Shown here: positions 4,566-37,903 of the stretch, piece by piece
Numbering within the stretch: position 1 is the stretch's first letter
How the letters are laid out: each line of letters opens with the position of its first letter
Assembly (NCBI RefSeq): GCF_009377235.1
Contig: NZ_VMNX01000015.1
Location: 1-64,000, forward strand
DNA from: Streptomyces acidicola
Lineage (GTDB): Bacteria; Actinomycetota; Actinomycetes; Streptomycetales; Streptomycetaceae
DNA length: 64,000 bases
Reading direction: 5' to 3'
Translations under genes and position numbers: made by a program
Notes under the pieces: generated by a model
Seen by the model: only the letters and a program-made list of their open reading frames with translations
What the model was told of the DNA's origin: nothing
Databases searched by the model: none

Positions 4566-5828
4566 TTACTGCCGTTCGAAGCGGGCCATAGCCGCTGCAA
4601 TCGCCGCGTAGATGACGGCAATTGTTACCACCAAGGCGGCTGAGCGGCCGTCAGGAGGGAGCATCAGGGCGGCCACTCCGGCGGCACCCACGAAAGCGAC
4701 GTTGAACAGCACGTCGTACACCGAGAAGATCCGGCCACGGAAGCCGTCGTCGATCGTGGACTGGACGATCGTGTCCGTGGCGATCTTTGCGCCCTGAGTG
4801 ACGAGGCCAAGGACGAACGCCGCGATCAGTATGGGGGTCTTGGCGAACGGCAGCCCCAGAGCGGGCTCCAGGACGGCCGCGGCGGCGGCACAGGTGGCGA
4901 TCCATATGCCTGGTCCGAGTCGCGAGACCGCCGATGGGGTCACCACCGCCGCTGCGAAGAAGCCCGCTCCCGAGATCGCCACAGCAAGGCCCAGCAGGGC
5001 CAGCCCGTCTTTGGCGTCGGACGAGAAGGCGTACCGGCACAGCATCAGCACCATGACCGTCAGGGCGCCGTAGCAGAACCGCATCAGCGTCATCGAGGCC
5101 AGAGCCCAGGTGGCCTCCCGCCGTTGGGGCTCCGCGAGATGCCGTATGCCCGCCACCAGGTCCCGTGCGGTGCCGGTGAGTGCGGTTCGCAGCCGTGGTT
5201 GCACCAAGTCCGGCTCGGGCCCGAGCAGTTCCCGCGTCATGCGCAGAGAGGCGAGGGCGGAACACAGGTACAGAGCCGCGCCGAGGAGGACCACCGCGGC
5301 GTCGGAGTTCGCCACCACCAGCCGTACGACGAAGGCAAGTCCGCCGCCCGCGGTCGCGGCGAGTGTGCCGGCCGTCGGGGAGAGGGAGTTGGCCATCACC
5401 AGGCGATCGGCGTCCACCACGCGCGGCAGGGCTGCCGAGAGCCCGGCCAGGACGAACCGGTTGACCGCGGTAACACAGAGCGCGGACACGTAGAAGAGCC
5501 AGCTCGGCACAGCGCTCAGCACCAGGAGGGCCGTCACACAGGCCAGGACGGCACGCAGCAGGTTGCCGTACAGGAGGACCTGGCGGCGTCGCCAGCGGTC
5601 CAACAGGACACCGGCGAAAGGGCCGATGAGCGAGTACGGGAGGAGCAGAACGGCCATCGCCGAGGCGATCGCGGCTGCCGACGTCTGCCTCTCCGGTGAG
5701 AAGACGACGTATGCGGCGAGCGCGACCTGGTAGACGCCGTCGGCGCCCTGGGACAGCAGCCGTACGGCGAGTAGGCGCCGGAAGTTCCGGAAGCGGAGCA
5801 GGACGCGCAGGTCACGCACGACGGACAT
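4566..5828 (-). CDS. MFS transporter
   Basis: 420 residues with about 12 hydrophobic helices, starting MSVVRDLRVLLRFRNFRRLL. The segment LLDRWRRRQVLLYGNLLRA near residue 75 is the conserved cytoplasmic loop between helices 2 and 3 of the major facilitator family (D-R-x-x-R-R). I chose the ATG at 5826-5828 because GAGG precedes it at normal spacing; a GTG 15 bp upstream (5843) lacks a ribosome site. The repetition of small residues and the lack of a large loop suggest a drug- or metabolite-efflux member. The substrate cannot be told. A strong hairpin upstream separates it from ino1. Confidence 0.85.
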   Translation of the reverse strand: MSVVRDLRVLLRFRNFRRLLAVRLLSQGADGVYQVALAAYVVFSPERQTSAAAIASAMAVLLLPYSLIGPFAGVLLDRWRRRQVLLYGNLLRAVLACVTALLVLSAVPSWLFYVSALCVTAVNRFVLAGLSAALPRVVDADRLVMANSLSPTAGTLAATAGGGLAFVVRLVVANSDAAVVLLGAALYLCSALASLRMTRELLGPEPDLVQPRLRTALTGTARDLVAGIRHLAEPQRREATWALASMTLMRFCYGALTVMVLMLCRYAFSSDAKDGLALLGLAVAISGAGFFAAAVVTPSAVSRLGPGIWIATCAAAAAVLEPALGLPFAKTPILIAAFVLGLVTQGAKIATDTIVQSTIDDGFRGRIFSVYDVLFNVAFVGAAGVAALMLPPDGRSAALVVTIAVIYAAIAAAMARFERQ

Positions 5829-5850
5829 GAGGCACAGCCTCACATACGGG

Positions 5851-15320: not shown

Positions 15321-15584
15321 GGGGCACCTCCTGCGGAAGACGGCGCATCGTAGCGCCTTACTCACCCGATCTGTACAGATTGACGGTCCCCACCGCCTGA
15401 TTTCAACCGGAAGCGGGGGTGCGGGTACTCTTTACCGTCTGCACTGGTGTCTGCCCAGGCCACGACGGGGGATCTCAGCCGGGACCCCCGAATGTCAGTG
15501 GCGGCCGATACCGTTGCGTACGCATCACAACCCTCCTGCCACGGAACGACCGTGGCCGCTGAGTCCAAAGGAGGTGGGTTCCAC

Positions 15585-19351: not shown

Positions 19352-20827
19352 GTGAGCATTTCCGAGCCCTTGGACGAGCCGTGGGCCGACAGCGGACCCA
19401 GCGATCGTCTGCCCGCCTCCCGTCGCGGCAGCACTGGTGGCCGCGCCCGTGACGAACAGCACGACCGGGGCCGTGAGGACAGTGCGTGGGACGGCGCGGG
19501 GCCGTCGTTCGAGCGGGTACCGCCACAGGACCTCGATGCCGAGCAGTCCGTTCTCGGTGGCATGCTCCTGTCCAAGGACGCCATCGCGGACGTGGTCGAG
19601 GTGCTCAAGGGCCATGACTTCTACAAGCCCGCGCACGAGACCATCTTCCAGGCCATCCTCGACGTCTACGCCAAGGGTGAGCCGGCCGACCCCATCACGA
19701 TCGCCGCCGAGCTCACCAAGCGCGGCGAGATCACCAAGGTGGGTGGCCCCGCGTATCTGCACGCCCTCGTCCAGACGGTCCCGACGGCGGCGAACGCCGA
19801 GTACTACGCCGAGATCGTCCACGAGCGTGCGGTCCTGCGCCGCCTGGTCGAGGCCGGTACGCGGATCACGCAGATGGGGTACGCGGCCGATGACGACGTC
19901 GACGAGATCGTCAACAGGGCACAGGCCGAGATCTATGCCGTCACCGAGCAGCGCACCACTGAGGACTATCTGCCGCTCGGCGACATCATGGAGGGCGCGC
20001 TCGACGAGATCGAGGCGATCGGTTCCCGGTCGGGGGAGATGACCGGTGTGCCGACCGGCTTCACTGACCTCGACCAGCTCACGAACGGTCTGCACCCGGG
20101 CCAGATGATCATCATCGCCGCCCGTCCCGCCATGGGTAAGTCGACGCTGGCGCTGGACTTCGCACGGGCCTGCTCGATCAAGCACAACATGCCGAGCGTG
20201 ATCTTCTCGCTCGAAATGGGCCGCAATGAGATCGCGATGCGTCTGCTGTCCGCCGAGGCGCGCGTGGCTCTGCATCACATGAGGTCCGGGACGATGACCG
20301 ACGAGGACTGGACCCGCCTCGCGCGCCGGATGCCGGATGTTTCGGCCGCTCCGCTCTACATCGACGACTCCCCGAACCTGTCGATGATGGAGATCCGTGC
20401 CAAGTGCCGCCGTCTCAAACAGCGCAGCGATCTGAAGCTGGTCGTCATCGACTACCTGCAGCTGATGCAGTCCGGCGGTAAACGGTCCGAGAGCCGCCAG
20501 CAGGAGGTCTCCGACATGTCGCGAAACCTCAAGCTGCTGGCCAAGGAGCTGGAACTGCCGGTGATCGCGCTGTCCCAGCTCAACCGTGGCCCCGAGCAGC
20601 GCACGGACAAGAAGCCCATGGTCTCCGACCTGCGTGAGTCGGGATCGATCGAGCAGGACGCGGACATGGTGATCCTGCTGCACCGCGAGGACGCCTATGA
20701 GAAGGAGTCCCCGCGCGCGGGCGAGGCGGACATCATCGTGGGCAAGCACCGCAACGGCCCGACGGCCACGATCACCGTCGCCTTCCAGGGGCACTACTCA
20801 CGCTTCGTGGACATGGCGCAGACCTGA
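19352..20827 (+). CDS. dnaB: replicative DNA helicase DnaB
   Basis: 491 residues, GTG start at 19352 behind GGGAGGAGG. DnaB is the hexameric helicase that opens the fork. After a hydrophilic extension (1-50) come the N-terminal domain (VPPQDLDAEQSVLGGMLLSKDAI) and the RecA-like core, with Walker A ARPAMGKST near residue 260, Walker B KLVVIDYLQLM near 368, and SQLNRGPEQR near 410. No intein is present. The stop TGA is followed by TAA. A Tn7-like transposon begins 10 bp after the stop, so the gene itself is intact. Confidence 0.97.
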   Translation: MSISEPLDEPWADSGPSDRLPASRRGSTGGRARDEQHDRGREDSAWDGAGPSFERVPPQDLDAEQSVLGGMLLSKDAIADVVEVLKGHDFYKPAHETIFQAILDVYAKGEPADPITIAAELTKRGEITKVGGPAYLHALVQTVPTAANAEYYAEIVHERAVLRRLVEAGTRITQMGYAADDDVDEIVNRAQAEIYAVTEQRTTEDYLPLGDIMEGALDEIEAIGSRSGEMTGVPTGFTDLDQLTNGLHPGQMIIIAARPAMGKSTLALDFARACSIKHNMPSVIFSLEMGRNEIAMRLLSAEARVALHHMRSGTMTDEDWTRLARRMPDVSAAPLYIDDSPNLSMMEIRAKCRRLKQRSDLKLVVIDYLQLMQSGGKRSESRQQEVSDMSRNLKLLAKELELPVIALSQLNRGPEQRTDKKPMVSDLRESGSIEQDADMVILLHREDAYEKESPRAGEADIIVGKHRNGPTATITVAFQGHYSRFVDMAQT

Positions 20828-20837: not shown

Positions 20838-20848
20838 TGTAGGGTCTC
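20838..20848 (+). repeat. left terminal inverted repeat
   Basis: TGTAGGGTCTC, matching the right end at 10 of 11 positions. The TGT...ACA termini are standard for the Tn7/Mu/Tn5053 group. Confidence 0.93.
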
Positions 20849-20913
20849 AAATCCTGCTTCATAATCTCAGAGTCAGCTGCATATGGATGGCATTTATGCA
20901 GCCATCGTGAGAC
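20844..20913. promoter_or_regulatory. TnsB-like binding repeats, left end
   Basis: GTCTCA (20844-20849), ATCTCA (20864-20869) and, inverted, TGAGAC (20908-20913). They lie upstream of tnsA and should both mark the end for the transposase and allow it to repress its own operon. The remaining 110 bp to the tnsA start show nothing further. Confidence 0.7.
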
Positions 20914-21023
20914 TCGCAGCTCGGGGCCTTCACTCTTCTGGGTGATGTAAGGGGTGACCTCTCCACGCGGGGAGCGACCGCTGGCACCTTGGCTACACGG
21001 GCAGTCACTCGTGGGCTGGGGGT

Positions 21024-21743
21024 GTGGTGGACGTTGCTGTGACGGTGAGCGTGCGTCGTCAGAACGGTCAGGTCGTTGAAGATCGCTTCTGGGGCACGGA
21101 GCCCATCAAATCTTTGGCTTCGGCCATGCCCTGGCGGACGTTCCGTTGGTACAAGGGCCAGAAGCACTACTCGGGCACCTACTGGTCGGCGACGATGCGC
21201 GATCACGTGATCTACGAGTCGCGACTGGAGCTGTCGCGGTTGCTCTTCGCTGATTTCGATTCGTCCGTACGCGGCATCGTGGCTCAGCCCTTCTTGCTGA
21301 AGACGGTGATGGAGGGGAAGGTCCGCAGGCACATCCCGGACTACCTCCTGCTCACCCGGGAGGTGCCGGTGGTCGTCGACGTCAAGCCGCTTCATCGGTT
21401 GTCCAAGCCGGAGGTGGCGTTCACCTTCGGCTGGACTCGGCGGGCGGTGGAATCACGGGGATGGGCGTACGAGGTCTGGAGCGAGCCTCCGGCTGTGAAA
21501 CTGGAGAACATCCGGTTCCTGGCGGGCTATCGAAGGGACTGGCTGTTCAGCCCCGAGGTCCTGGAAGACCTTCGGGGAGCTGAGCTCGATGGTGTCCCTC
21601 TGGGGCAGGCCACCTGCTGTCTGCCGAATCGTTCGGAGCCTCAAGTCCGCTCCGCCATCCATCATTTGCTCTGGACGCGGTCTCTCGTTACCGATCTCGA
21701 TCGGCCGCTCAGCCCTTCTCACGTTCTGAGGCGGGCGGCATGA
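21024..21743 (+). CDS. tnsA: TnsA-like endonuclease
   Basis: 239 residues, GTG start. TnsA is a restriction-enzyme-like nuclease that cuts the 5' ends of the transposon and makes movement cut-and-paste. The TnsA N-terminal domain shows the catalytic set: E65 in YESRLELSRLLFADFD, D106 in HIPDYLLL, and D119-x-K121 in VVVDVKP. C-terminal to it is the small TnsA helical domain (FLAGYRRDWLFSPEVLEDL) that contacts TnsC in Tn7. Its ATG-stop overlap with tnsB (4 bp) shows translational coupling. The presence of tnsA separates this element from Tn5053/TniABQ types, which lack it. Confidence 0.9.
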   Translation: MVDVAVTVSVRRQNGQVVEDRFWGTEPIKSLASAMPWRTFRWYKGQKHYSGTYWSATMRDHVIYESRLELSRLLFADFDSSVRGIVAQPFLLKTVMEGKVRRHIPDYLLLTREVPVVVDVKPLHRLSKPEVAFTFGWTRRAVESRGWAYEVWSEPPAVKLENIRFLAGYRRDWLFSPEVLEDLRGAELDGVPLGQATCCLPNRSEPQVRSAIHHLLWTRSLVTDLDRPLSPSHVLRRAA

Positions 21744-23869
21744 GCAGGGCGGGGGCTCGGGTCGGGGTCGGTACGCGCTTCCGCTACGACGGAGAGACCG
21801 TCGAGGTGGTGGAGATGGCCGCGACGACGGCAGGCAACGAGGTGGTCCTGAAGGACGGCCAGGGACGATTGCTGCGGCTGTCACTCAAGGAACTTCTGTT
21901 CTCCGACCGTGCCGCTGTCCGTCCAGACGGCCCAGGACCGTCAGCTGACGATGAAGAAGAGATCGCTTCGGTCGTACTGGGACAGCTCGACAGTTCAGCA
22001 CGGGCGAAAGTTCTTGAACGCGCCGAGCATGTCCGCGAGGTTCTGACGGGATTCCGGTCTGGAGTTCCGGAACTGGCACGCGATGGTGAGCCCCGCCCGG
22101 ACTTTCGCCCGGAGCGACCGTTGGAGGTGCGATACACAGCCAAGGCCGATGAGCTGGGGGTATCACTTCGCACTGTCAAGCAGTGGGTCGCTGATTTTCG
22201 TCGTCGTGGAGAGGCTGGGCTCGCGCCGAAGAAGTCAAAAGGAAAGCCACACTCCGGAGTTGATGACCGGTGGGTGGAGACCGCGGTGGAGGTGATGGTC
22301 GAGCACACCGACCAGTCGCGGCCGTCGCGGACGATGGTGATCGAGCGGACCCGGGCTCGGGTGATCGCGCGGTTCGGCGAGGATGTGGTGCCGCAGCCGA
22401 GTCGGGCGACGGCGTTTCGGCTGCTGGAGGAGCTGGAGCGACGACATCCGCTGTTCCGGCTGAGTACGAAGCGCAACCGGGATATTGCCGGTCGGCCGGA
22501 GGGTCAGTACGGCAAGCTGCGGCCGACACGGCCGGGCGAGTACCTGCTGATGGACTCCACCCGCCTGGACGTCTTCGCGTTCGACCCGCTGACGCTCAAG
22601 TGGGTTCAGGCCGAGTTGAGTGTCGGGATGGACTGGTACACCCGCTGCATCACGGGGATCCGGCTGACGCCGGTCTCGACGAAAGCGGTGGATGTCAGTG
22701 CGGTGCTCTTCCAGTCGTTTCGGCCGAGGCCGGCGGGGCGGGACTGGCCGCGACACGCGGTCTGGCCCGAGCACGGCATCCCCCGCACCGTCCTGGTCGA
22801 CGTCGAGGGCGCCAGTGGACCGGGCCTGGCCTCGCCGCCCCTGGTTCCCGAGACGCTGGTTGTCGACCACGGCAAGGTCTACGTCTCGGAGCATCTGACC
22901 AGTGTCTGCCACCGGATGGGCATCTCCATCCAGCCGGCCCGGCTCCGGACGGGTCGGGACAAGGGGCCGGTTGAGCGCTATTTCCGGACCTTGCGGGAGG
23001 GGCTGCTGCAGGTGCTGCCGGGCTACAAGGGGCCCGACATCCACTCGCGGGGCGAGAGTCCGGAGGACGACGCGTTCTTCTTCCTCGACGAGCTTGAGGC
23101 GATCATTCGGGAGTGGACCGCGACGGTCTATCACTGCAGGCCGCACTCCAGTCTGGTCGATCCGGGCCTGCCGGGTCTGCGGATGTCTCCGGCGAAGATG
23201 TTCGAGCACGGCATGGCGCGGGCGGGTTACATCGAAGCACCCCGCGACCGGGACCTTGCTTACGAGTTCCTGAAGACCGAGTGGCGCACGATCCAGCACT
23301 ACGGTGTCGAGATTGGCCGTCGCCGCTACAGCGGCCCCGGACTGAAGGGCCTGAGTGGTCTCCGGAGTCCGTACGACGGCCCGGTCAAGAATGGCTGGCC
23401 GTTCCAGGTGGACCCCGACGACATCACCCGGATCTACTTCCGTGATCCGGCCACCCGGGCCTGGCACACGCTGCTCTGGGAGCACGCGCCGTCGACCGAG
23501 ATGCCGTTGAGTGAGGACGCGTTGACATTCGCCCGGCAGTTGGCTGCCTCGAAGTATCGCTTTCCCGACGACCGGCTTGCCGTCGCCGACTTGCTGGAGC
23601 GGTGGAACCTCGGGTTGGGCACCACGATCGCCGAGCGGCGCATGGCCCTGCGGCTCTCGCGAGAGCAGGCCGCCATCGAACTTCCGGAGAGTGAGGCGGA
23701 GACGGTCGTCTCGCTTCCGTCCGTACGCAAGGCCCTTGGCCAGGACAACGAGACCGCAGAACCGCAGGAGCCCGACGTGGCGACGGAAACGGGGGACGAT
23801 GACGAGGCCGATCTGGAGGACCTCGCCAAGGAGGACGACTTCTACGCTGATGCTCTGGAGGACGTGTGA
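21740..23869 (+). CDS. tnsB: TnsB-like DDE transposase
   Basis: 709 residues. An N-terminal beta domain (1-60) is followed by helix-turn-helix segments (ELGVSLRTVKQWVADFRRRG near 138, then PSRATAFRLLEELERRH near 220). The Mu/Tn7-type integrase core carries D272 (LLMDSTRLD), D376 (LVVDHGKVY) and E412 (GRDKGPVERYF), all three catalytic residues. The beta-barrel domain (near 525-600) and an acidic C-terminus (residues about 665-709) follow; in Tn7 and Mu such tails bind the ATPase partner. Reads as intact. It overlaps tnsA and tnsC by 4 bp each. Confidence 0.95.
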   Translation: MSRAGARVGVGTRFRYDGETVEVVEMAATTAGNEVVLKDGQGRLLRLSLKELLFSDRAAVRPDGPGPSADDEEEIASVVLGQLDSSARAKVLERAEHVREVLTGFRSGVPELARDGEPRPDFRPERPLEVRYTAKADELGVSLRTVKQWVADFRRRGEAGLAPKKSKGKPHSGVDDRWVETAVEVMVEHTDQSRPSRTMVIERTRARVIARFGEDVVPQPSRATAFRLLEELERRHPLFRLSTKRNRDIAGRPEGQYGKLRPTRPGEYLLMDSTRLDVFAFDPLTLKWVQAELSVGMDWYTRCITGIRLTPVSTKAVDVSAVLFQSFRPRPAGRDWPRHAVWPEHGIPRTVLVDVEGASGPGLASPPLVPETLVVDHGKVYVSEHLTSVCHRMGISIQPARLRTGRDKGPVERYFRTLREGLLQVLPGYKGPDIHSRGESPEDDAFFFLDELEAIIREWTATVYHCRPHSSLVDPGLPGLRMSPAKMFEHGMARAGYIEAPRDRDLAYEFLKTEWRTIQHYGVEIGRRRYSGPGLKGLSGLRSPYDGPVKNGWPFQVDPDDITRIYFRDPATRAWHTLLWEHAPSTEMPLSEDALTFARQLAASKYRFPDDRLAVADLLERWNLGLGTTIAERRMALRLSREQAAIELPESEAETVVSLPSVRKALGQDNETAEPQEPDVATETGDDDEADLEDLAKEDDFYADALEDV

Positions 23870-24984
23870 ACGACAACGCCGTTCCGGAGCCGGACAATCT
23901 CGCCCTGTCGCGGAAGGAGGACTTCAAGGCGTTCGCCGAGAGTCCTCGCCGCAGTCGGCCCGATCTGCTGACGCGCAAGCAGCTGAAGTCTCTGGGCGCG
24001 CAGGCGCGGGCGGACTACGACCGGCAGCGTCGGAAGTGGCACGCGAACATCGGCCCGGTCAAGACGCCTCAACTGGCAGAGCTCCACGAGGACTTGTGGG
24101 ACATCGTCGACAGCAACGAGCAGGATGGTGACAAGGCCAAGGGGGCGGTGGCTGTCGACGCGTTCCCGGGGCTGGGCAAGACGACCTCGGTGCTTGCCTT
24201 CGCCCGCGACTTCCACCAGCGGGAGATCGAGGAGTCGGGCCCGTTCACCAGCCAGGGGCACGAGCGGATCCCGGTCTGCCGGGTCGGGCTGACCGGGAAC
24301 ACCGGGATGAAGGATCTCAACCGGGCGATGCTGGAGTTCTTCGGCCACCCTGGACAGGGGCGGGGCACCACCGCTCAGTTCGGACGGCGGGTGCTGGACT
24401 GCGTGTTGTCCTGCGATGTCCGACTGGTGGTTCTGGATGATCTGCACTTTCTGAAATGGGGACAGAAGAGCGGCATCGAGGTGAGCAATCACCTGAAGTG
24501 GATTGCCAACGAGTTCCCGGTGACGTTGCTGATGGTGGGGGTCGAACTCGCGGAGAAGGGCCTGTTCGGCGAGGGAACGAACGGGCGCGACACAGCGCTG
24601 GCCCAGACCGGCCGCCGCACCACCCGCCTCGGGCTGCGTCCGTTCACCATCGACGCGGAGGCCGGGCGCAGGGAATGGCGGCAGATGCTGCTGGCCCTCG
24701 AACAGCGCGTCGTGCTCACAGACAAGCACCCCGGCATGCTCGCGGACGACCTGTCGGACTACCTATTCGCCCGCAGCACCGGACACATCGGCTCACTGAT
24801 GACGCTGATCAACCGTGGCTGCCAGCGGGCGGTCCGCACCGGCGCCGAGCGTTTGGACCAGGAGCTGATGGACCGGGTGAAGAACGACGAGGCGTCCGAG
24901 GCGGCCCGCCTCGAACTCCAGGCCGCGCTGGAGAAGAAGCGGCTGACCAGCCGCCCGCGATCCCGGGGCCGACGAGCTGCATGA
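23866..24984 (+). CDS. tnsC: TnsC/TniB-like AAA+ ATPase
   Basis: 372 residues, GTG start overlapping the tnsB stop (GTGA). TnsC links the target-site protein to the transposase through ATP-driven filaments on DNA. Walker A is AFPGLGKTT (99-107, K105) and Walker B is VVLDDLHFL (D191, D192). GVEL near residue 225 and TGRRTTRLGLRPF near 248 fit the sensor regions of the family. The N-terminal 90 residues are basic and helical, as in TnsC proteins that bind TnsA/TnsB. Its stop overlaps the tniQ ATG. Confidence 0.93.
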   Translation: MNDNAVPEPDNLALSRKEDFKAFAESPRRSRPDLLTRKQLKSLGAQARADYDRQRRKWHANIGPVKTPQLAELHEDLWDIVDSNEQDGDKAKGAVAVDAFPGLGKTTSVLAFARDFHQREIEESGPFTSQGHERIPVCRVGLTGNTGMKDLNRAMLEFFGHPGQGRGTTAQFGRRVLDCVLSCDVRLVVLDDLHFLKWGQKSGIEVSNHLKWIANEFPVTLLMVGVELAEKGLFGEGTNGRDTALAQTGRRTTRLGLRPFTIDAEAGRREWRQMLLALEQRVVLTDKHPGMLADDLSDYLFARSTGHIGSLMTLINRGCQRAVRTGAERLDQELMDRVKNDEASEAARLELQAALEKKRLTSRPRSRGRRAA

Positions 24985-27629
24985 GAGAGCTGGCCCGGAC
25001 TCTGCCGATCCGGCTGCCGCCCCTGCCCGGTGAGGCACTGGACTCCTGGCTGGAGGCGACGGCCAGACGGATGGACACCGCGCTCGGTGATGTCCTGCTG
25101 CACTTCGGATTCCCGGTTCGGCAGCGGACCGGAAACCAGTTCCGGGGCATCCCGGCGGACTGGACGATCTTCCTCGACGAGCGGTTGACCGCCGCCGTCG
25201 CGCACGCCACCGGAACGAGCCCGGAGGCGGTCGCTGCCATGACCTTGGCGCACTATGAGGGCCGGGCCCTGCAGCTGAGTGCCCAAGGCAGGACTGTGAC
25301 ACGGCATGTCCTCTGGGGACGCGGACGGGGGTCCCGTTTCTGCCCGGATTGTCTCCGCTCCAGCGAGGGGCGCTGGCAGTTGTCCTGGCGGCTTGGGTTC
25401 TCCTTCGCCTGCACCCTGCACCGCCGTCTGCTGGCGGACTGCTGCCCGCACTGCGGGCAGGTTCCGCGGCAGCGGCCCCGTTCCGGCCGGTCTGTCCCCC
25501 GGCCTGAACTCTGCGGCAATACACCAGCCCGTCCCGGCGGCCCGATCTCGGCGGGCTGCGGCACGGATCTGACCTGCGCTTCGACGCTTCTCCTGCCTGC
25601 TGGCCACCCTGTTCTTGCGGCGCAGGACCGGGTGACGGAGATCATCGAAACGCAGACGGCCGCCTTCGGCTCCTACCGGACTGCCCCACAACCGGCACCA
25701 GCGGTGCTGGCCGACATCCGGGCCCTGGGCATCCGTGTCCTGAGCGATCTTCCCGCCGCCGCTCTGCGGGAACAGATACCGGCCGACATCGCGGAAGCGC
25801 ACCTCGCTGCCGACCCGGCCGCCTGGCACCTCGAACGGGTGGCGGACCGCCCGGGGTTCATGGCCCCGCCGCGAGCCGCGGATGCCGCCGTCGCGGTCAC
25901 CGTGGCCCTGGGCATCCTGCAGCAGCCGGGAATCCATCCGGCCGGCGAGGTCCTGCGCGGCCTGCTGGAAGAAGTACGCGAGGAACTCGCGCAGATCTCG
26001 GTGACGAGTATCGACGGCTGGGGGCGGGGCATCAGCCCAGTGCTGCAGTCCGTGCATCTGGCCGCGCTCGCCCCTTCCCTCCGCCCCAGCGAGCACCTCC
26101 GCTACCGCACCACGGCCGAGATGCCCCGCCGACCGGCAAGGACCGCCCGGGACATCGAGGAGAGAGCCAGGAAGATCCCTGCGATGTTCTGGCCGTCCTG
26201 GGCGGTCCGGCTCACACCGCCCGAGGGAATCTACGCACGGTCCCTGGCCCCCGTTCTGGCTGCCCTGCTGCTGATCCCAGACAGTCGCACCTCCTTGGAA
26301 CAGGCGGCCGGGCTGGCCGGCGACGTCATCGACGGCATCGAGGTCTCGCGGCTTCTCCAGGCACTTGACGACCTTCCGCACTGGCCGGACATCGTCACTG
26401 CCCTGGACCGGCTCTCCGACTACCTTGATGCCAGCGACGTCCCCATCGACTACGGCCGACGCCGGGTCCTCGACTACACCGGCCTGCTTCCCCATGACCG
26501 CTGGCTGGAGATCTGCCGCCGCACCGGAACCCCGCCGGGAGCTGGCCGACGCGAACGCATTGCCCGCAGCCAGCTCTTCCGACGCCTCAGCGGCCTGCCT
26601 GCCGAGTCCGCCCCCGACGACCAGGGCGGGCTCGACAGCGCAGAGTTCCGGGCGATGTCCCTGCACCTCACCGCACTCCAGACACCCGAACTCGCACACG
26701 CCCTCCAGCAGGAAGCCCTCAACTTCCTTGCCTCGCACCGCATCCACGACGAGCCCGTGACCTGGCAGCCACCCACCGCCTTGCTGGCCGGACTCACCCT
26801 TCCAGGACCGGACCCGGCGCACATCGACCTGCCTCGCCTGCATCAGCTCGTCCGAGAACGCCAGCACCCCGTTCAGCACGCCGCCCAAGTCCTGGGCACG
26901 ACCGTCGAGGCCATCCGGCATGCCCTCGACGAACACCCAGCCCCCGCACCCCCGCTGACGAAGAACACAGCCAGAGCCGCCGGCCGCATCCGGCAGCAAG
27001 CCCGGCAAGCCATCACGGCAGAGCGCTTCACCCAGCTCTACCGCGACGAACACCGTTCCCTCCAGCAGATCGCCACCCTCACCGGCTTCTCCCGCAGAGT
27101 GCTGACCGAACTCGCCAAGGAGTACGGCATCCCACTCCGCGACGGCCCTCAGGACTACAAGCGTTGCGGCACCGTCGAACGGGACTGGCTCGTCGAGCAG
27201 TACGTCCACCGACGCCGGACCCTGCCGGATCTCGCCCGCGAAACCGGCATGAGCACCGCGAACATGGCCCGCTGGGCCCACACCCACAACGTCCCCCTCC
27301 GCCCCCGCGGCGGGGGAAGCCACAACACCGCACTGCGTGTGACGGAGCAGGCGGCCCACACTCCAGCGATCCTGCGCGAGGCTCTCACCAGCTCCTTTGC
27401 CCGGCAGCGACTCGAACGCTTCGTGGCGGCATCGCGATATGCCACGATGCGTGAGGCAGCCGCAGTCCTCGGTATCAACCAGCCGACCCTGGTCACCCAG
27501 ATCAACCGCCTGGAGCGGGACCTCGGGCAAGCACTGTTCGAACGTGTCGAGCGCGGTCGGGCTATGGAACTGACCCCCTTCGGCGAGACAGTCGTAGCAG
27601 CGGCCAGCACCGTCATTATTGACCGGTGA
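24981..27629 (+). CDS. tniQ: TniQ/TnsD-like target selector with multiple HTH
   Basis: 882 residues, much longer than TniQ (about 400) or TnsD (about 500). The TniQ domain covers roughly 1-165 and has the zinc-finger set C121/C124 (FCPDC), H147 (CTLHRR) and C155/C158 (CPHC). The middle is helical with unclear homology. The C-terminal third has helix-turn-helix segments: VQHAAQVLGTTVEAIRHAL, RSLQQIATLTGFSRRVLTEL and RTLPDLARETGMSTANMARW. The last one, REAAAVLGINQPTLVTQI with LERDLGQALFERV, looks exactly like a LysR winged helix. In Tn7, TnsD reads the glmS end; this protein probably reads the dnaB end. Confidence 0.88.
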   Translation: MRELARTLPIRLPPLPGEALDSWLEATARRMDTALGDVLLHFGFPVRQRTGNQFRGIPADWTIFLDERLTAAVAHATGTSPEAVAAMTLAHYEGRALQLSAQGRTVTRHVLWGRGRGSRFCPDCLRSSEGRWQLSWRLGFSFACTLHRRLLADCCPHCGQVPRQRPRSGRSVPRPELCGNTPARPGGPISAGCGTDLTCASTLLLPAGHPVLAAQDRVTEIIETQTAAFGSYRTAPQPAPAVLADIRALGIRVLSDLPAAALREQIPADIAEAHLAADPAAWHLERVADRPGFMAPPRAADAAVAVTVALGILQQPGIHPAGEVLRGLLEEVREELAQISVTSIDGWGRGISPVLQSVHLAALAPSLRPSEHLRYRTTAEMPRRPARTARDIEERARKIPAMFWPSWAVRLTPPEGIYARSLAPVLAALLLIPDSRTSLEQAAGLAGDVIDGIEVSRLLQALDDLPHWPDIVTALDRLSDYLDASDVPIDYGRRRVLDYTGLLPHDRWLEICRRTGTPPGAGRRERIARSQLFRRLSGLPAESAPDDQGGLDSAEFRAMSLHLTALQTPELAHALQQEALNFLASHRIHDEPVTWQPPTALLAGLTLPGPDPAHIDLPRLHQLVRERQHPVQHAAQVLGTTVEAIRHALDEHPAPAPPLTKNTARAAGRIRQQARQAITAERFTQLYRDEHRSLQQIATLTGFSRRVLTELAKEYGIPLRDGPQDYKRCGTVERDWLVEQYVHRRRTLPDLARETGMSTANMARWAHTHNVPLRPRGGGSHNTALRVTEQAAHTPAILREALTSSFARQRLERFVAASRYATMREAAAVLGINQPTLVTQINRLERDLGQALFERVERGRAMELTPFGETVVAAASTVIIDR

Positions 27630-27940
27630 CCACATGGATGCGCTGCTACTGGGACGAGGAAGTCACCTGGTTCTACTTCGAGGTCGACGCCGAAGGCTGG
27701 GTGATCCGGCAGGTCGAACTCGAAGGCCCTGAGCTGACCCCGATCGCAGCTGCCTCCCTCGCCGAGTGGCAGCAGGCCTACGACGCAGGCCGCCTCGATG
27801 AGTACGACAGTCGGTTCGGGATCACAGCTGAACTGCCCGTCTCGGAATGGGAAGGCCACGACCCCGAGCAACTTACCTCCGCGGAGTTCGAGGAAGTCTG
27901 GGGTCCTGCCCGCCGACAGATCGCATCCCGGCCCCGCTGA
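27626..27940 (+). CDS. hypothetical protein coupled to tniQ
   Basis: 104 residues; the GTG start overlaps the tniQ stop, so it is translated from the same message. The sequence is acidic and Trp-rich (CYWDEEVTWFYFEVDAEGWVIRQVELEG), predicted as a beta-sheet followed by two helices, with no known motif that I can name. Its coupling to the four transposition genes suggests either a transposition accessory factor or the first cargo gene. No function is assigned. Confidence 0.7.
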   Translation: MTTWMRCYWDEEVTWFYFEVDAEGWVIRQVELEGPELTPIAAASLAEWQQAYDAGRLDEYDSRFGITAELPVSEWEGHDPEQLTSAEFEEVWGPARRQIASRPR

Positions 27941-28051
27941 CCTCTCTGTCTGCGGCGGCTTCTTGGCTAGGTCCCGATACAGGAGTGCGGAACTCTCTGG
28001 CCAACTCAAAACCCAGTGTGGTCACCGATGACATTGCGGCACACTGCGCGG

Positions 28052-28954
28052 ATGGGTACTGATGTCGCCTGGTCCCCGCGGGAGAGGGCTCTGCGTCACG
28101 TCGCGGCCCTGTCCTCGGGAGGGCCGCTCAACCTTGGACTGCGGCTGACGATGAACTTCCATCCCGACCGCATGGCGGGCGACCGTCCGATCCTGCTCAA
28201 GATGGCGGAGGACGGTATCTACCGGTCGCAGTTCGTGACCGGCACCAGCAATGGCGGTCTGACCGCCCACCCAGGCGGGGACAGGTGGCACTGGGAAAGC
28301 CGTATCTTCGGAGGTGCCTACGACCTCGCCGCCGCTGGCGAACGCCCCGTTTACGGAGCGCTGAACTACCGGCGAGACGCTGTCGGCGGGGCGCCTCGAT
28401 TCGGCTCCTCGCACTTCAGGCTCACAATCAGGACTCTCGCGCGAGCCACGTTCTGCTACCCGGACAGCTCCACCGACCCCTCGGCATTCGGAGTTGCAAA
28501 CCGCTTCTCGCTCCTTGAGCTGGCCGAGGCCGACGGCCTCGATGCCGTGGACGGTCATATCGAAGCGCAGGTTCATGGGCCGGTCAGGTTCGACTGCGAC
28601 GTCGAAGCCCTGGTTCTGGATCCCAGCTATCGCGGCACGGCGGTCGAAGACATGGCCCGCCGACTCCCATGCGTCATTGAGTGGCATCCCGGCTTCCGAC
28701 TCGCCGTGGATCACTTGCGACGCCACCCGGACTACCGCGGACAGGAGTACGTCGATCTAGGCGCCGAGATCGCGGTCGACGGCTGGCTTGATCCCCAGAT
28801 CATTGGCGATGCTGCCCGCACAGACCGCTACGACCCACAGGCGCTCAAGAAGGTCTGGCACTGCCTGGCGCGCTTCGGCTCGCCACTTCGCACGAACGCC
28901 GAAACGCGGGACCCAGTCCCCGCCTGCTGTCCACTGGAGCCGGCGAGCCGGTGA
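28052..28954 (+). CDS. DUF3626 family protein (transposon cargo)
   Basis: 300 residues from ATG 28052; earlier in-frame starts at 28016 (GTG) and 28028 (ATG) are possible, and none has a clear ribosome site. The block NFHPDR (35-40), YRSQFVTGTSNGGLTA (57-72), GGDRWHWESRIFGGAYD (75-91), PVYGALNYRR and GSSHFRLTIR is, to my recollection, typical of DUF3626. The many conserved Arg/Ser/Gly/Glu residues suggest an enzyme, and an ADP-ribosyltransferase-like fold has crossed my mind, but I cannot show it. It lies between the tns operon and the right end and is the only separate cargo gene. Confidence 0.7.
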   Translation: MGTDVAWSPRERALRHVAALSSGGPLNLGLRLTMNFHPDRMAGDRPILLKMAEDGIYRSQFVTGTSNGGLTAHPGGDRWHWESRIFGGAYDLAAAGERPVYGALNYRRDAVGGAPRFGSSHFRLTIRTLARATFCYPDSSTDPSAFGVANRFSLLELAEADGLDAVDGHIEAQVHGPVRFDCDVEALVLDPSYRGTAVEDMARRLPCVIEWHPGFRLAVDHLRRHPDYRGQEYVDLGAEIAVDGWLDPQIIGDAARTDRYDPQALKKVWHCLARFGSPLRTNAETRDPVPACCPLEPASR

Positions 28955-29108
28955 CCCACCGTTCATTGGCATCTGCCGCCTGCATGGGTCCACACGGGCT
29001 TCGCAAGGTCGGCTGGGCCATCAGGCGTTCCGCCCCGGGTTGTCGCGGAGCACTGCCTGAACTTGGCCGCGCAGCGACTGACGTTCCCACGAGGATATGA
29101 CACAGCCG

Positions 29109-29192
29109 TGAGACAGAACTCTCCAGCCAAGCCTTGAGACAACCGATGAAACAGCAGGCCACAGCATCGCTCTATGCCGCGAGCCGCGAGAT
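29109..29192. promoter_or_regulatory. TnsB-like binding repeats, right end
   Basis: TGAGAC at 29109-29114 and 29135-29140, and CGAGAT at 29187-29192 within the terminal repeat. Read inward from the right end these give ATCTCGCGGCT, GTCTCAAGGCT and GTCTCACGGCT, a clear repeated motif. The stretch 28955-29108 between the cargo gene and these repeats shows no gene. Confidence 0.75.
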
Positions 29193-29198
29193 CCTACA
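29188..29198 (-). repeat. right terminal inverted repeat
   Basis: GAGATCCTACA, the inverted partner of the left end with one mismatch. Confidence 0.93.
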
Positions 29199-29203
29199 CC
29201 GCT
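29199..29203. repeat. target site duplication, right copy
   Basis: CCGCT, identical to 20833-20837. Confidence 0.93.
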
Positions 29204-29238: not shown

Positions 29239-30627
29239 ATGACAACACCTCAGGAAGAGTTGCTGCCTGCCACGCGTCGCGCCCTGCTGCACCGCATCGC
29301 CGTGGCTCAGGCCGAGGGGCGGGCGCCGTCCATGGTCGCTGCGGTCGTTCGCGGTGGCCGGACGGTGTGGACCGGGGCACGGACCTCAGTGGAGGGGCAC
29401 GCTCCGGACGAGAACACGCAGTACAGGGTTGGTTCGATCACCAAGACGTTCACTGCCGTCCTGGTGCTGCGGCTCCGTGACGAGGGCGTACTGGACCTCG
29501 GCGACCCGCTGGAGAAGCACCTGCCGGGCACCGGCGCGGGGGAGGCCACGATCGCCGAACTGCTCGCGCACACCGGTGGCCTGGCGGCGGAGTCGCCCGC
29601 GCCCTGGTGGGAGCGCACCCCCGGCTCGCTGCGTCCGGAGCTCGCCGATGTGCTGGGCGAGCAGCCGCACCGGCATCCCGTGGGCCGCCGCTTCCACTAC
29701 TCCAACACCGGCTACACGCTCCTGGGTGCCCTCGTCGAAGAGTTGCGAGGTGCCCCCTGGGAGGACGTGCTGCGGCGTGAGGTACTCGAACCGCTGAGCC
29801 TGCACCGCACGAGCGGCGACCCGCAGGCGCCCCATGCGGGCGGCTGGGCCGTACATCCCTGGGCGGACGTGATGCTTCCGGAGCCCACCGAGCACCTCGG
29901 ACGCATGGCGCCCGCGGGACAACTCTGGTCCACCACCGGGGACCTCTCCCGCTTTGCGGCGTTCCTCGCCCAGGGCGACGACCGAGTGCTGAGCGCGGAG
30001 TCCCTGCTGGAGATGTGGACGCCCGCCGCGCCGGCCGAGGCGGCGGATGTGGCCGCGGGCGTGGCGTACGGGCTTGGCATGCAACTCCAGCAGCGCGACG
30101 GCCGCTTCCTCGTGGGGCACTCCGGATCCGTACCGGGCTTCCTCGCGAGCCTCACGATCAGTGTGGAGGACGATGTGGCGGCCGTCGTGCTGGTCAACTG
30201 CACTTCGGGACCCGCCGCGTCGAGTGTTGCCGCCGACCTCGTCGGCATCGTGGCGGAGGCTGAGCCCCGGATTCCCGAGCCGTGGCGGCCGCTGCCCGAA
30301 GCCGACCGGTCCGTGCTGGAGTTGACTGGGCAGTGGTACTGGGGCACGCATGCCTTCGCGCTGCGGCTCGTGGCCGGCGGGGGTCTCTCGCTGGAACCGC
30401 TGTCGGGCAACGGCCGCCTGGGTGCGTGGTTCAGGGCGAACGGTGACGGCACGTGGACCGGACTCGATGGCTATTTCGCGGGTGAGTCTCTGCGGGCCGT
30501 AAGACGGCCCGACGGGTCCGTGGACCATCTGGACCTCGGATCGTTTGTGTTCACGCGGCAGCCGTACGAGGAGGGGGCTTCGGTGCCGGGTGGGGTGGAC
30601 CCCGAGGGGTGGCGCGGGATCTCGTAG
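29239..30627 (+). CDS. beta-lactamase-family serine hydrolase
   Basis: 462 residues from ATG 29239, starting MTTPQEELLPATRRALL. The class C beta-lactamase/DD-peptidase fold shows S66-x-x-K69 (GSITKTF), Y154-S-N (HYSNTGY) and H294-S-G (the KTG equivalent). A C-terminal domain of about 110 residues follows. No signal peptide is visible. An in-frame start at 29134 lies inside the transposon end, so it is not native. Before insertion of the transposon it began 45 bp after dnaB and may have been read with it; it now has the transposon end as its upstream region. The substrate is unknown. Confidence 0.88.
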   Translation: MTTPQEELLPATRRALLHRIAVAQAEGRAPSMVAAVVRGGRTVWTGARTSVEGHAPDENTQYRVGSITKTFTAVLVLRLRDEGVLDLGDPLEKHLPGTGAGEATIAELLAHTGGLAAESPAPWWERTPGSLRPELADVLGEQPHRHPVGRRFHYSNTGYTLLGALVEELRGAPWEDVLRREVLEPLSLHRTSGDPQAPHAGGWAVHPWADVMLPEPTEHLGRMAPAGQLWSTTGDLSRFAAFLAQGDDRVLSAESLLEMWTPAAPAEAADVAAGVAYGLGMQLQQRDGRFLVGHSGSVPGFLASLTISVEDDVAAVVLVNCTSGPAASSVAADLVGIVAEAEPRIPEPWRPLPEADRSVLELTGQWYWGTHAFALRLVAGGGLSLEPLSGNGRLGAWFRANGDGTWTGLDGYFAGESLRAVRRPDGSVDHLDLGSFVFTRQPYEEGASVPGGVDPEGWRGIS

Positions 30628-37691: not shown

Positions 37692-37823
37692 GGTGCTCCC
37701 TCCCCTCCCATCCCCGGAGCGCCCAACTATAAATAAGTCGATAGGTCTCTGTCGCTACTGTGATTGGACACTGACGCAGAGTCAACTAGCCTTGTTGACG
37801 CGGTTCTTCGCGCGCAGAACCGG

Positions 37824-37862
37824 GGGCGGTCCGAGCCACGAGGGGGGAGGTTCGGACCGCCC
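37824..37862 (-). terminator. terminator of the ptpA-PLP enzyme unit
   Basis: A 14-bp stem (37824-37837 with 37849-37862, one G-T pair) around an 11-nt loop, 41 bp beyond the stop of the leftward PLP enzyme gene. Confidence 0.7.
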
Positions 37863-37903
37863 GATCTGCGTAGTGGGGTACCAGGCGGTAACGATCGGCT
37901 CCG

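Follow-up and report, generated by a model that had tools for sequence, protein, structure and literature searches.

A long TniQ protein with a LysR-type end, the probable target selector of a dnaB-associated Tn7-like transposon in Streptomyces

Positions 24981 to 27629 (forward strand) of a 64,000-nucleotide stretch of Streptomyces acidicola DNA (NCBI RefSeq assembly GCF_009377235.1, contig NZ_VMNX01000015.1; the whole stretch is called the window) encode an 882-residue TniQ protein in which predicted helix-turn-helix (HTH) segments and a terminal LysR-type winged helix follow the TniQ domain. Such an architecture raises the question of which DNA the protein might read, and of whether the LysR-type helix is the part that reads it. 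A first-pass annotation, made from the letters alone, had proposed a modular DNA reader. According to the analysis below, the protein is very probably the TnsD-type target selector of an actinobacterial Tn7-like transposon that homes to the 3′ end of dnaB.

The tniQ gene belongs to a Tn7-like transposon inserted behind dnaB

The gene is carried by a Tn7-like element of 8,361 bp (20838 to 29198) that begins with TGTAGG at 20838, ends with CCTACA at 29198, and has CCGCT on both sides. It starts 10 bp behind the stop codon of the host replicative helicase gene dnaB (20825 to 20827). The tnsA, tnsB, tnsC, and tniQ genes form, in this order, one overlapping operon, tniQ being the fourth gene of the transposon. 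The full tnsA, tnsB, tnsC, and tniQ/tnsD set thus occurs together with TGT...ACA ends and a 5-bp target duplication, as expected of Tn7-like elements; the target duplication of Tn7 is also 5 bp. None of the six open reading frames (ORFs) of the element scanned against Pfam is a cas gene, no search aimed at cas genes having been made, and no tnsE was noticed, likewise with no search for tnsE. The main features of the locus are as follows.

19352-20827, + strand: dnaB, host replicative helicase, with the attachment site at its 3′ end (Pfam DnaB_C, E 1.3e-108; NCBIfam DnaB)
20792-20827, + strand: conserved last 36 nt of dnaB (HYSRFVDMAQT-stop), putative recognition motif (end distance in 36 of 38 loci; likeness to plasmid dnaB)
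20833-20837, no strand: target-site duplication CCGCT, left copy (single copy in empty site L109)
20838-20935, + strand: left transposon end TGTAGGGTCTCA with TCTCA/TGAGA boxes (putative TnsB sites)
21024-21743, + strand: tnsA (NCBIfam NF033179 TnsA_like_Actin, 255 bits against a cut-off of 110)
21740-23869, + strand: tnsB, DDE-type transposase (Pfam Mu-transpos_C, 22.1 bits against a cut-off of 21.7; weaker rve match)
23866-24984, + strand: tnsC, TniB-like AAA ATPase (Pfam AAA_22, E 3e-12; TniB, E 3.8e-10)
24981-27629, + strand: tniQ, tnsD-type target selector gene, 882 residues (ORF translation and Pfam)
25005-25433, + strand: TniQ domain with zinc-finger cysteines, residues 9-151, putative TnsC contact (Pfam, E 6.3e-20)
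27626-27940, + strand: 104-residue cargo gene, recurrent in relatives (weak DUF6881 match)
28016-28954, + strand: DUF3626 cargo gene (Pfam, E 9.6e-61)
29090-29198, − strand: right transposon end ...GAGATCCTACA with TCTCA-type boxes
29199-29203, no strand: target-site duplication CCGCT, right copy
29239-30627, + strand: right flanking host gene for a beta-lactamase-fold protein (putative start codon), which adjoins dnaB in empty sites

The tniQ ORF is intact and its ATG overlaps the 3′ end of tnsC, which ends at 24984. A longer in-frame ORF starts at 24456 but is not the likelier gene, because of this overlap and because alignments with full-length homologues start at residues 1 to 6 of the 882-residue protein. 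Pfam places the TniQ domain at residues 9 to 151 (72.7 bits against a cut-off of 27), and its cysteines are invariant in all seven sequences compared, window included, which bears out the zinc-finger TniQ domain described at first and agrees with the N-terminal part expected of a TnsD-type selector. The protein had also been called far longer than TniQ or TnsD. This stands for the TnsD of Tn7, which has about 508 residues, but not within its own family, where the relatives listed have 720 to 995 residues (broken or partial ones apart) and a length of 882 is normal. Antisense to tniQ runs an open frame of 958 residues (24759 to 27635, − strand), probably a shadow of high G+C codon use.

Relatives insert at a fixed place behind dnaB

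The joined flanks of the element were used to probe 18 genomes without a TniQ match; all 18 gave a match, five of them across the junction. Seven sites were inspected. At L109 (L numbers denote loci), AATCCGCTCGAC runs unbroken at the insertion point of the window, with a single CCGCT and matching flanks, and dnaB likewise adjoins the right flank in L110, L111, and L112. The junction of L113 is ragged, and in L117 and L118 the flanks lie about 0.3 kb apart. In the rest of the 18 genomes, the flanks are separate or one flank matched. The same flanks recur in other Streptomycetaceae loci by Blastn.

Relatives of the TniQ protein were found in 18 of 121 genomes of the genus (E 1e-20), in 13 of 296 genomes of the class (1e-25), and, with residues 601 to 882 as the query, in 40 of 392 genomes of the genus (1e-15), the source genome being included each time. 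They were also found in 69 plasmid records and at 16 loci of GTDB contigs, one of which is a short Dyella match, and one scan of viral contigs yielded none. After removal of known duplicates, 38 loci with a dnaB 3′ end were counted, the transposon end being sought as TG[TC]NGG. In 36 of them this end lies 19 to 26 bp past a conserved dnaB ATG (35 at 19 to 23 bp), and in 36 of 36 the tns genes are codirectional with dnaB, consistent with the orientation-controlled homing behind a conserved gene that marks Tn7-like elements. The two exceptions are L072, which yielded no such end, and the remnant L101. The distance behind the dnaB stop ranges from 5 to 14 bp. Over the 36 loci it has a mean of 9.3 and a standard deviation of 1.8, against 21.3 and 1.4 for the distance from the ATG, and hosts with a displaced dnaB stop (L010, L016, and L019) still keep an ATG distance of 20 to 21 bp. 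Given this smaller spread and these displaced stops, it seems to be the coding motif from which the reader takes its distance. Of 41 loci searched, 11 had a right end flanked by the matching 5-mer, and L102, searched later, gave another. Since six dnaB-site elements have distinct 5-bp duplications (CCGCT, CCCCG, CCGGA, GCCGA, CACGG, and TCCCT), they represent separate insertions.

The insertion distance is also kept behind plasmid-type dnaB genes. L056 sits behind a dnaB that is 38% identical to the host gene and whose best listed relatives (69 to 80% identical) are in Streptomyces plasmids, phage matches all being below 60%; its last 12 codons rank 4th among 437 windows in nucleotide identity to the dnaB at our locus, with 30 of 36 nt in common. 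L061 sits behind the dnaB (70% identical) of a Mycolicibacterium alvei plasmid. Five plasmid dnaB genes have 31 to 35 of their last 36 nt in common with the dnaB of the window, and none showed a transposon end within 45 nt. Two copies of one element, each with a 5-bp duplication of its own, lie at dnaB (L102) and at an unrelated position on a plasmid (L065); they are 97.1% identical over 8,159 aligned columns (right end, 87%). Such near-identical copies at two sites suggest recent mobility, and the position of the L065 copy means that an off-site route exists too. Other subfamilies use sites of their own: inspected by eye, L059, L085, and L086 of Rhodococcus are all placed behind one kind of gene end, and L047 and L066 have a different gene in common, at whose 3′ end they are inserted.

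Other arrangements were seen around these sites. In L047 and L066, which have no LysR end, the TGTAG end of the transposon provides the in-frame stop codon of the target gene. L064 and L081, Rhodococcus plasmid elements without a LysR end, have the motif GGGCGGAGCGCAGCG in common just outside the left end, which points to a further site of their own. The dnaB match of L016 and L054 is broken at fixed codons by intein-like stretches of about 0.9 to 1.3 kb. In L010, a small stretch at dnaB (5617 to 5846) has both transposon ends and none of the family's genes, with the full element directly behind it, and tandem insertions occur in L011 and L062 as well. A second, distant Tn7-like family (tnsA about 28 to 37% and tnsB about 26 to 33% identical) is present in the dnaB downstream region of L097, L100, and L072; in L097 and L100, a remnant of the tniQ of the present family lies behind it.

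The C-terminal part contains predicted DNA-binding folds

The segments that follow the TniQ domain are placed as follows.

26829-26933, + strand: HTH1, residues about 617-651 (predicted model only; no profile match)
27018-27125, + strand: HTH2, residues about 680-715 (predicted model; repeat of HTH3)
27180-27284, + strand: HTH3, residues about 734-768 (predicted model; repeat of HTH2)
27396-27620, + strand: LysR-type winged helix, residues about 806-880 (Pfam HTH_1; structural likeness to BenM)

Residues 501 to 882 were modeled with AlphaFold2, with a mean predicted local distance difference test (pLDDT) score of 69.9 and values of mostly 80 to 89 in the LysR part. Pfam matched LysR HTH_1 at residues 810 to 869 (E 1.5e-14; 54.1 bits against a cut-off of 26.6), and in VIA-align the predicted winged helix superposed well on the DNA-binding domain of BenM on DNA (Z 11.2; root mean square deviation, 1.5 Å; 75 residues), so that the LysR-like helix with wing read from the letters was recovered by both profile and model. 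A phmmer search of PDB chains returned 17 sequences at E up to 1 (best, 1.5e-4); every one carries the name of a transcriptional regulator, LysR-type or other, and aligns inside residues 797 to 879. The top Foldseek matches were likewise of the LysR family (best E 0.011, probability 1.00), none reaching an E of 0.001 or less; of the HTH segments, this fold search covered the LysR part alone.

The three HTH-like segments that had been claimed as a minimum also appear in the model, as predicted helix triplets. HTH2 and HTH3 are alike in sequence above shuffles (score of 50 against a best of 40 among 500 shuffles), HTH1 shows no likeness beyond shuffles to HTH2 (37; best shuffle, 39) or to HTH3 (16), and none of the Pfam HTH models passes its cut-off on HTH1, HTH2, or HTH3. 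The C-terminal DNA-binding domains of a TnsD-type selector are therefore predicted to be present, the LysR part by profile and model and the other HTHs by model. The protein has the winged helix of LysR-type transcriptional regulators; the linker helix after it ends early, at residues 880 to 882, the protein itself ends at 882, and a Pfam scan up to E 1 gave no match to the C-terminal substrate-binding domain (PF03466).

LysR-type ends vary and are exchanged between elements

The LysR end was compared in 38 hand-picked full-length relatives. Elements without a left flank (L009/L090, L012, L095, L099, and L107) and duplicates were left out, as were broken or partial ones, e.g., L013, L014, L019, L023, L049, L055, L056, L061, L072, L073, L079, L088, and L093. 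The same architecture, which the first-pass annotation had suggested seeking in other elements, is common: the LysR end is present in 28 of the 38, although three of these (L051, L069, and L083) score weakly (9.7 to 14.6 bits) and L103 has a frameshift in its LysR part. Two LysR-like helices occur in L071, and L050 has a further end that looks PadR/MarR-like by eye. The core tree requires at least six changes between presence and absence of the LysR end. Together with the predicted folds, these variants, and the position of the family at defined gene 3′ ends, this supports the proposal of a modular C-terminal DNA reader; the long composite target envisaged with it stays a conjecture, the target indicated here being the 3′ end of dnaB.

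At dnaB, 14 elements have the LysR end and 2 lack it, against 14 and 8 elsewhere (Fisher p 0.14), L108 being counted as a dnaB element despite the 1.6 kb between its tnsA and dnaB and a possible remnant ahead of it; five independent pairs gave a median p of 1. L048 (722 residues) sits at dnaB with a 5-bp duplication, and the 600 bases that follow its tniQ encode no LysR end in any of the three forward frames. L067 (757 residues, without a LysR end) has a transposon end behind dnaB, an assignment that is only probable because its tnsA is 1.3 kb away. With L048 and probably L067 at dnaB, there is no ground for calling the LysR helix indispensable to the reading of this target; elements can home to dnaB without it, and its presence is not tied to the target. 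For Mycolicibacterium aubagnense (L079), a split TniQ with a free-standing LysR protein was considered and rejected, a frameshift being likelier because homology changes frame at about 15446 to 15499.

LysR ends fall into types. Within L010, L013, L014, and L019, and within L011, L012, L015, and L053, amino acid identity of the LysR part is 88 to 97% and fourfold identity 63 to 98%; between these two types the values are 51 to 58% and 23 to 38%. Two other types are looser (window-L018, 72%; window-L022, 74%; L018-L022, 94%; and L017, L020, and L074, 77 to 87%). At first sight the LysR end is the least conserved part, but a simply fast-evolving end was rejected, as fourfold identity drops alongside (window-L011, 69 to 75% in the core and 42% in the LysR part) and amino acid identity within types is high. 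By these comparisons it is a constrained domain. The types are also exchanged between elements: the identity of L013 and L053 is 88 to 93% as far as residue 722 but 56% in the LysR part, similarity shifting near residues 763 to 785; and L010 and L019 are 54 to 68% identical over residues 161 to 722 and 94% in the LysR part. In L010, L013, L014, and L019, the 1.46 kb behind tniQ, up to the right end, is 91 to 93% identical in six of six pairs. In the second type, long common stretches are limited to L011-L015 (1.35 kb, 92%) and the near-identical L012-L053; L011/L015 against L012/L053 have about 350 bp at 74 to 77% behind tniQ, and L018-L022 have 48 bp in common. That the LysR end always travels with cargo and right end thus holds for one type and fails for these latter comparisons. 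Most simply, the exchange would reflect recombination within and downstream of the last conserved segment of tniQ, though LysR end and right end may also be functionally tied.

Two further correlations were tried and dropped. A match of LysR type to the Ser codon of the dnaB motif, by which one type would go with TCG and another with TCC, was rejected because the near-identical LysR ends of L045, L055, and L098 sit on TCC, TCA, and TCG; the "TCC" type also occurs with TCG (L093) and TCA (L100), in a comparison of 32 rows that includes two stray matches (L023 and L048). LysR type also did not match left-end sequence by eye, L013 and L053 having the same left-end type and different LysR types.

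Probable target selection at dnaB and its alternatives

In the reading that we consider very probable, the C-terminal HTH array and the terminal LysR-type winged helix would bind the conserved 3′ end of dnaB, and the N-terminal TniQ domain would pass this target to TnsC and, via TnsC, to TnsA/TnsB. Insertion would follow in one orientation, 5 to 14 bp behind the stop, with a 5-bp duplication, leaving dnaB intact. The LysR helix would most likely provide an additional DNA contact or a pairing surface and not be the essential dnaB reader. Several points weigh against homing to dnaB by this TniQ. Because the loci were collected through likeness to tniQ, the figure of 36 of 38 does not hold for dnaB genes at large, and a match is present in just 40 of the 392 genomes of the genus. 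LysR-bearing relatives lie away from dnaB in 14 of 28 cases, either behind some other gene end that several have in common (Rhodococcus L059, L085, and L086) or scattered over plasmids; hence a TniQ of this build does not alone imply dnaB. Finally, the N-terminal half of the full-length AlphaFold model is poor (mean pLDDT of 51.4 for the whole, residues 1 to 390 mostly below 50), its N-terminal part being unusable and the C-terminal part alone being used.

Could the LysR winged helix itself be the specific dnaB reader, its gain having created the dnaB-homing lineage? The end is present in 14 of the 16 dnaB-homing full-length TniQ proteins compared, and the closely related L063, which has no LysR end, lies elsewhere. 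This reading is nevertheless unlikely in view of L048 and probably L067, of the LysR-bearing half of the comparison found elsewhere with the p values given above, of types that are 51 to 58% identical and yet all at dnaB where the left flank is known, and of near-identical ends on three different Ser codons. A real, though lesser, possibility is that the LysR end acts on the element itself, either through binding to its right end, cargo, or tns promoter, for autoregulation or for the matching of ends, or through pairing of two TniQ copies. LysR DNA-binding domains with their linker helix do pair in LysR regulators, and LysR end, cargo, and right end go together in L010, L013, L014, and L019, including the L010-L019 pair with divergent tniQ. 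However, this linkage is not general, LysR type does not match the left-end motif by eye, the linker helix is shortened, and the cargo linkage is explicable by plain homologous recombination with a crossover in the last conserved tniQ part.

The dnaB site could also be a mere safe, recombination-prone spot, elements having spread by homologous recombination after one founding insertion. The 3′ parts of elements have clearly been swapped between strains, but the six distinct duplications contradict such a history, as do single-base variation in distance and the insertions behind the divergent plasmid-type dnaB genes of L056 and L061, and we regard it as very improbable. Building on TniQ-guided homing to dnaB, we tentatively extend it to a more doubtful proposal, namely, a one-selector, two-lifestyle Tn7-like family. 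As dnaB with the same 3′ motif occurs both on chromosomes and on many Streptomyces plasmids, a single dnaB-reading TniQ would allow safe settlement as well as transport on plasmids, with no need for a second pathway of the TnsE type. The LysR end would then be an exchangeable module that tunes the complex, in one type inherited with cargo and right end.

Comparison with known systems

The architecture and the dnaB site extend a known kind of Tn7-like selector. As described in parts of PMC11406308 and PMC10293859, Tn7 TnsD at attTn7 (glmS 3′ end) likewise combines an N-terminal TniQ domain with a long, HTH-containing C-terminal part that binds DNA; it recognizes a conserved gene at the end of its coding sequence and directs one-orientation insertion behind it. 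Unlike in Tn7, the target gene here is dnaB and not glmS, the tnsA end faces the target gene, and the protein, which is longer, has a LysR-type winged helix at its C terminus. The winged-helix fold is common to this protein and LysR-type regulators such as BenM and CbnR (Z about 11), which differ in that here the effector-binding domain is absent and the helix stands at the C terminus.

The element presumably belongs to the Actinobacteria-dominated second Tn7-like clade of Benler et al. (2021, PMC8649781), given actinobacterial hosts in both and a TnsA well above the NF033179 cut-off. In the main text of that source, no member of the clade is given as experimentally characterized as of 2021, and neither "dnaB" nor "LysR" occurs. 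Fusions of TniQ to regulator-type DNA-binding domains (AcrR, CI, HA, HTH, and XRE) appear in the Figure 4 legend of PMC11406308 and follow the same principle as here, TniQ joined to a regulator-family DNA-binding domain; the part of the legend consulted does not name a LysR-type domain, and "LysR" is absent from the main text. Tn7706 of Rhodococcus, in the portion of PMC12915292 covered, is also an actinobacterial Tn7-like element with tnsA, tnsB, tniB, and tniQ, and differs in that no dnaB site is named there. Rhodococcus sp. YL-1 is listed in the same source as a Tn7706 carrier; a relative of our TniQ on a YL-1 plasmid, whose match ends at residue 775 without a LysR end, presumably belongs to Tn7706. 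In the part of PMC10991518 covered, dnaB serves only as a control. A full-text literature search, with supplements, most subscription papers, and preprints outside its range, returned no published account of a dnaB attachment site or of a LysR-type TniQ.

Actinobacterial Tn7-like elements would thereby gain a concrete attachment site, the dnaB 3′ end, which could serve as a safe landing site in Streptomyces, and a LysR-type winged helix is added to the DNA-binding parts used by TniQ proteins. The natural losses and swaps of the LysR end offer ready comparisons for the role of each module of a TnsD-type reader. A target gene common to chromosomes and plasmids would explain how a one-selector element keeps both a home and a vehicle.

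Cargo, remnants, and other features

The 104-residue cargo gene lies next to tniQ in the window, L011, L015, L022, L037, L065, L074, L100, L102, and L106. It seems to move between elements, since it remains 82 to 93% identical even where tniQ is only 34% identical (L065 and L102). In L037/L056 (G017:C538) and L038/L055 (G099:C580), deletion remnants fuse a tnsB piece to the LysR part of tniQ in open frames of 526 and 471 residues, respectively, which could be chance or a kept repressor-like protein. The source genome has a short remnant of a tniQ C terminus on contig C278 (L057, 1973 to 2215), about 55% identical over residues 770 to 850. Elsewhere in the window, positions 37740 to 37865 match the Streptomyces RNA Scr3920 of Rfam (RF02828, 132.5 bits).

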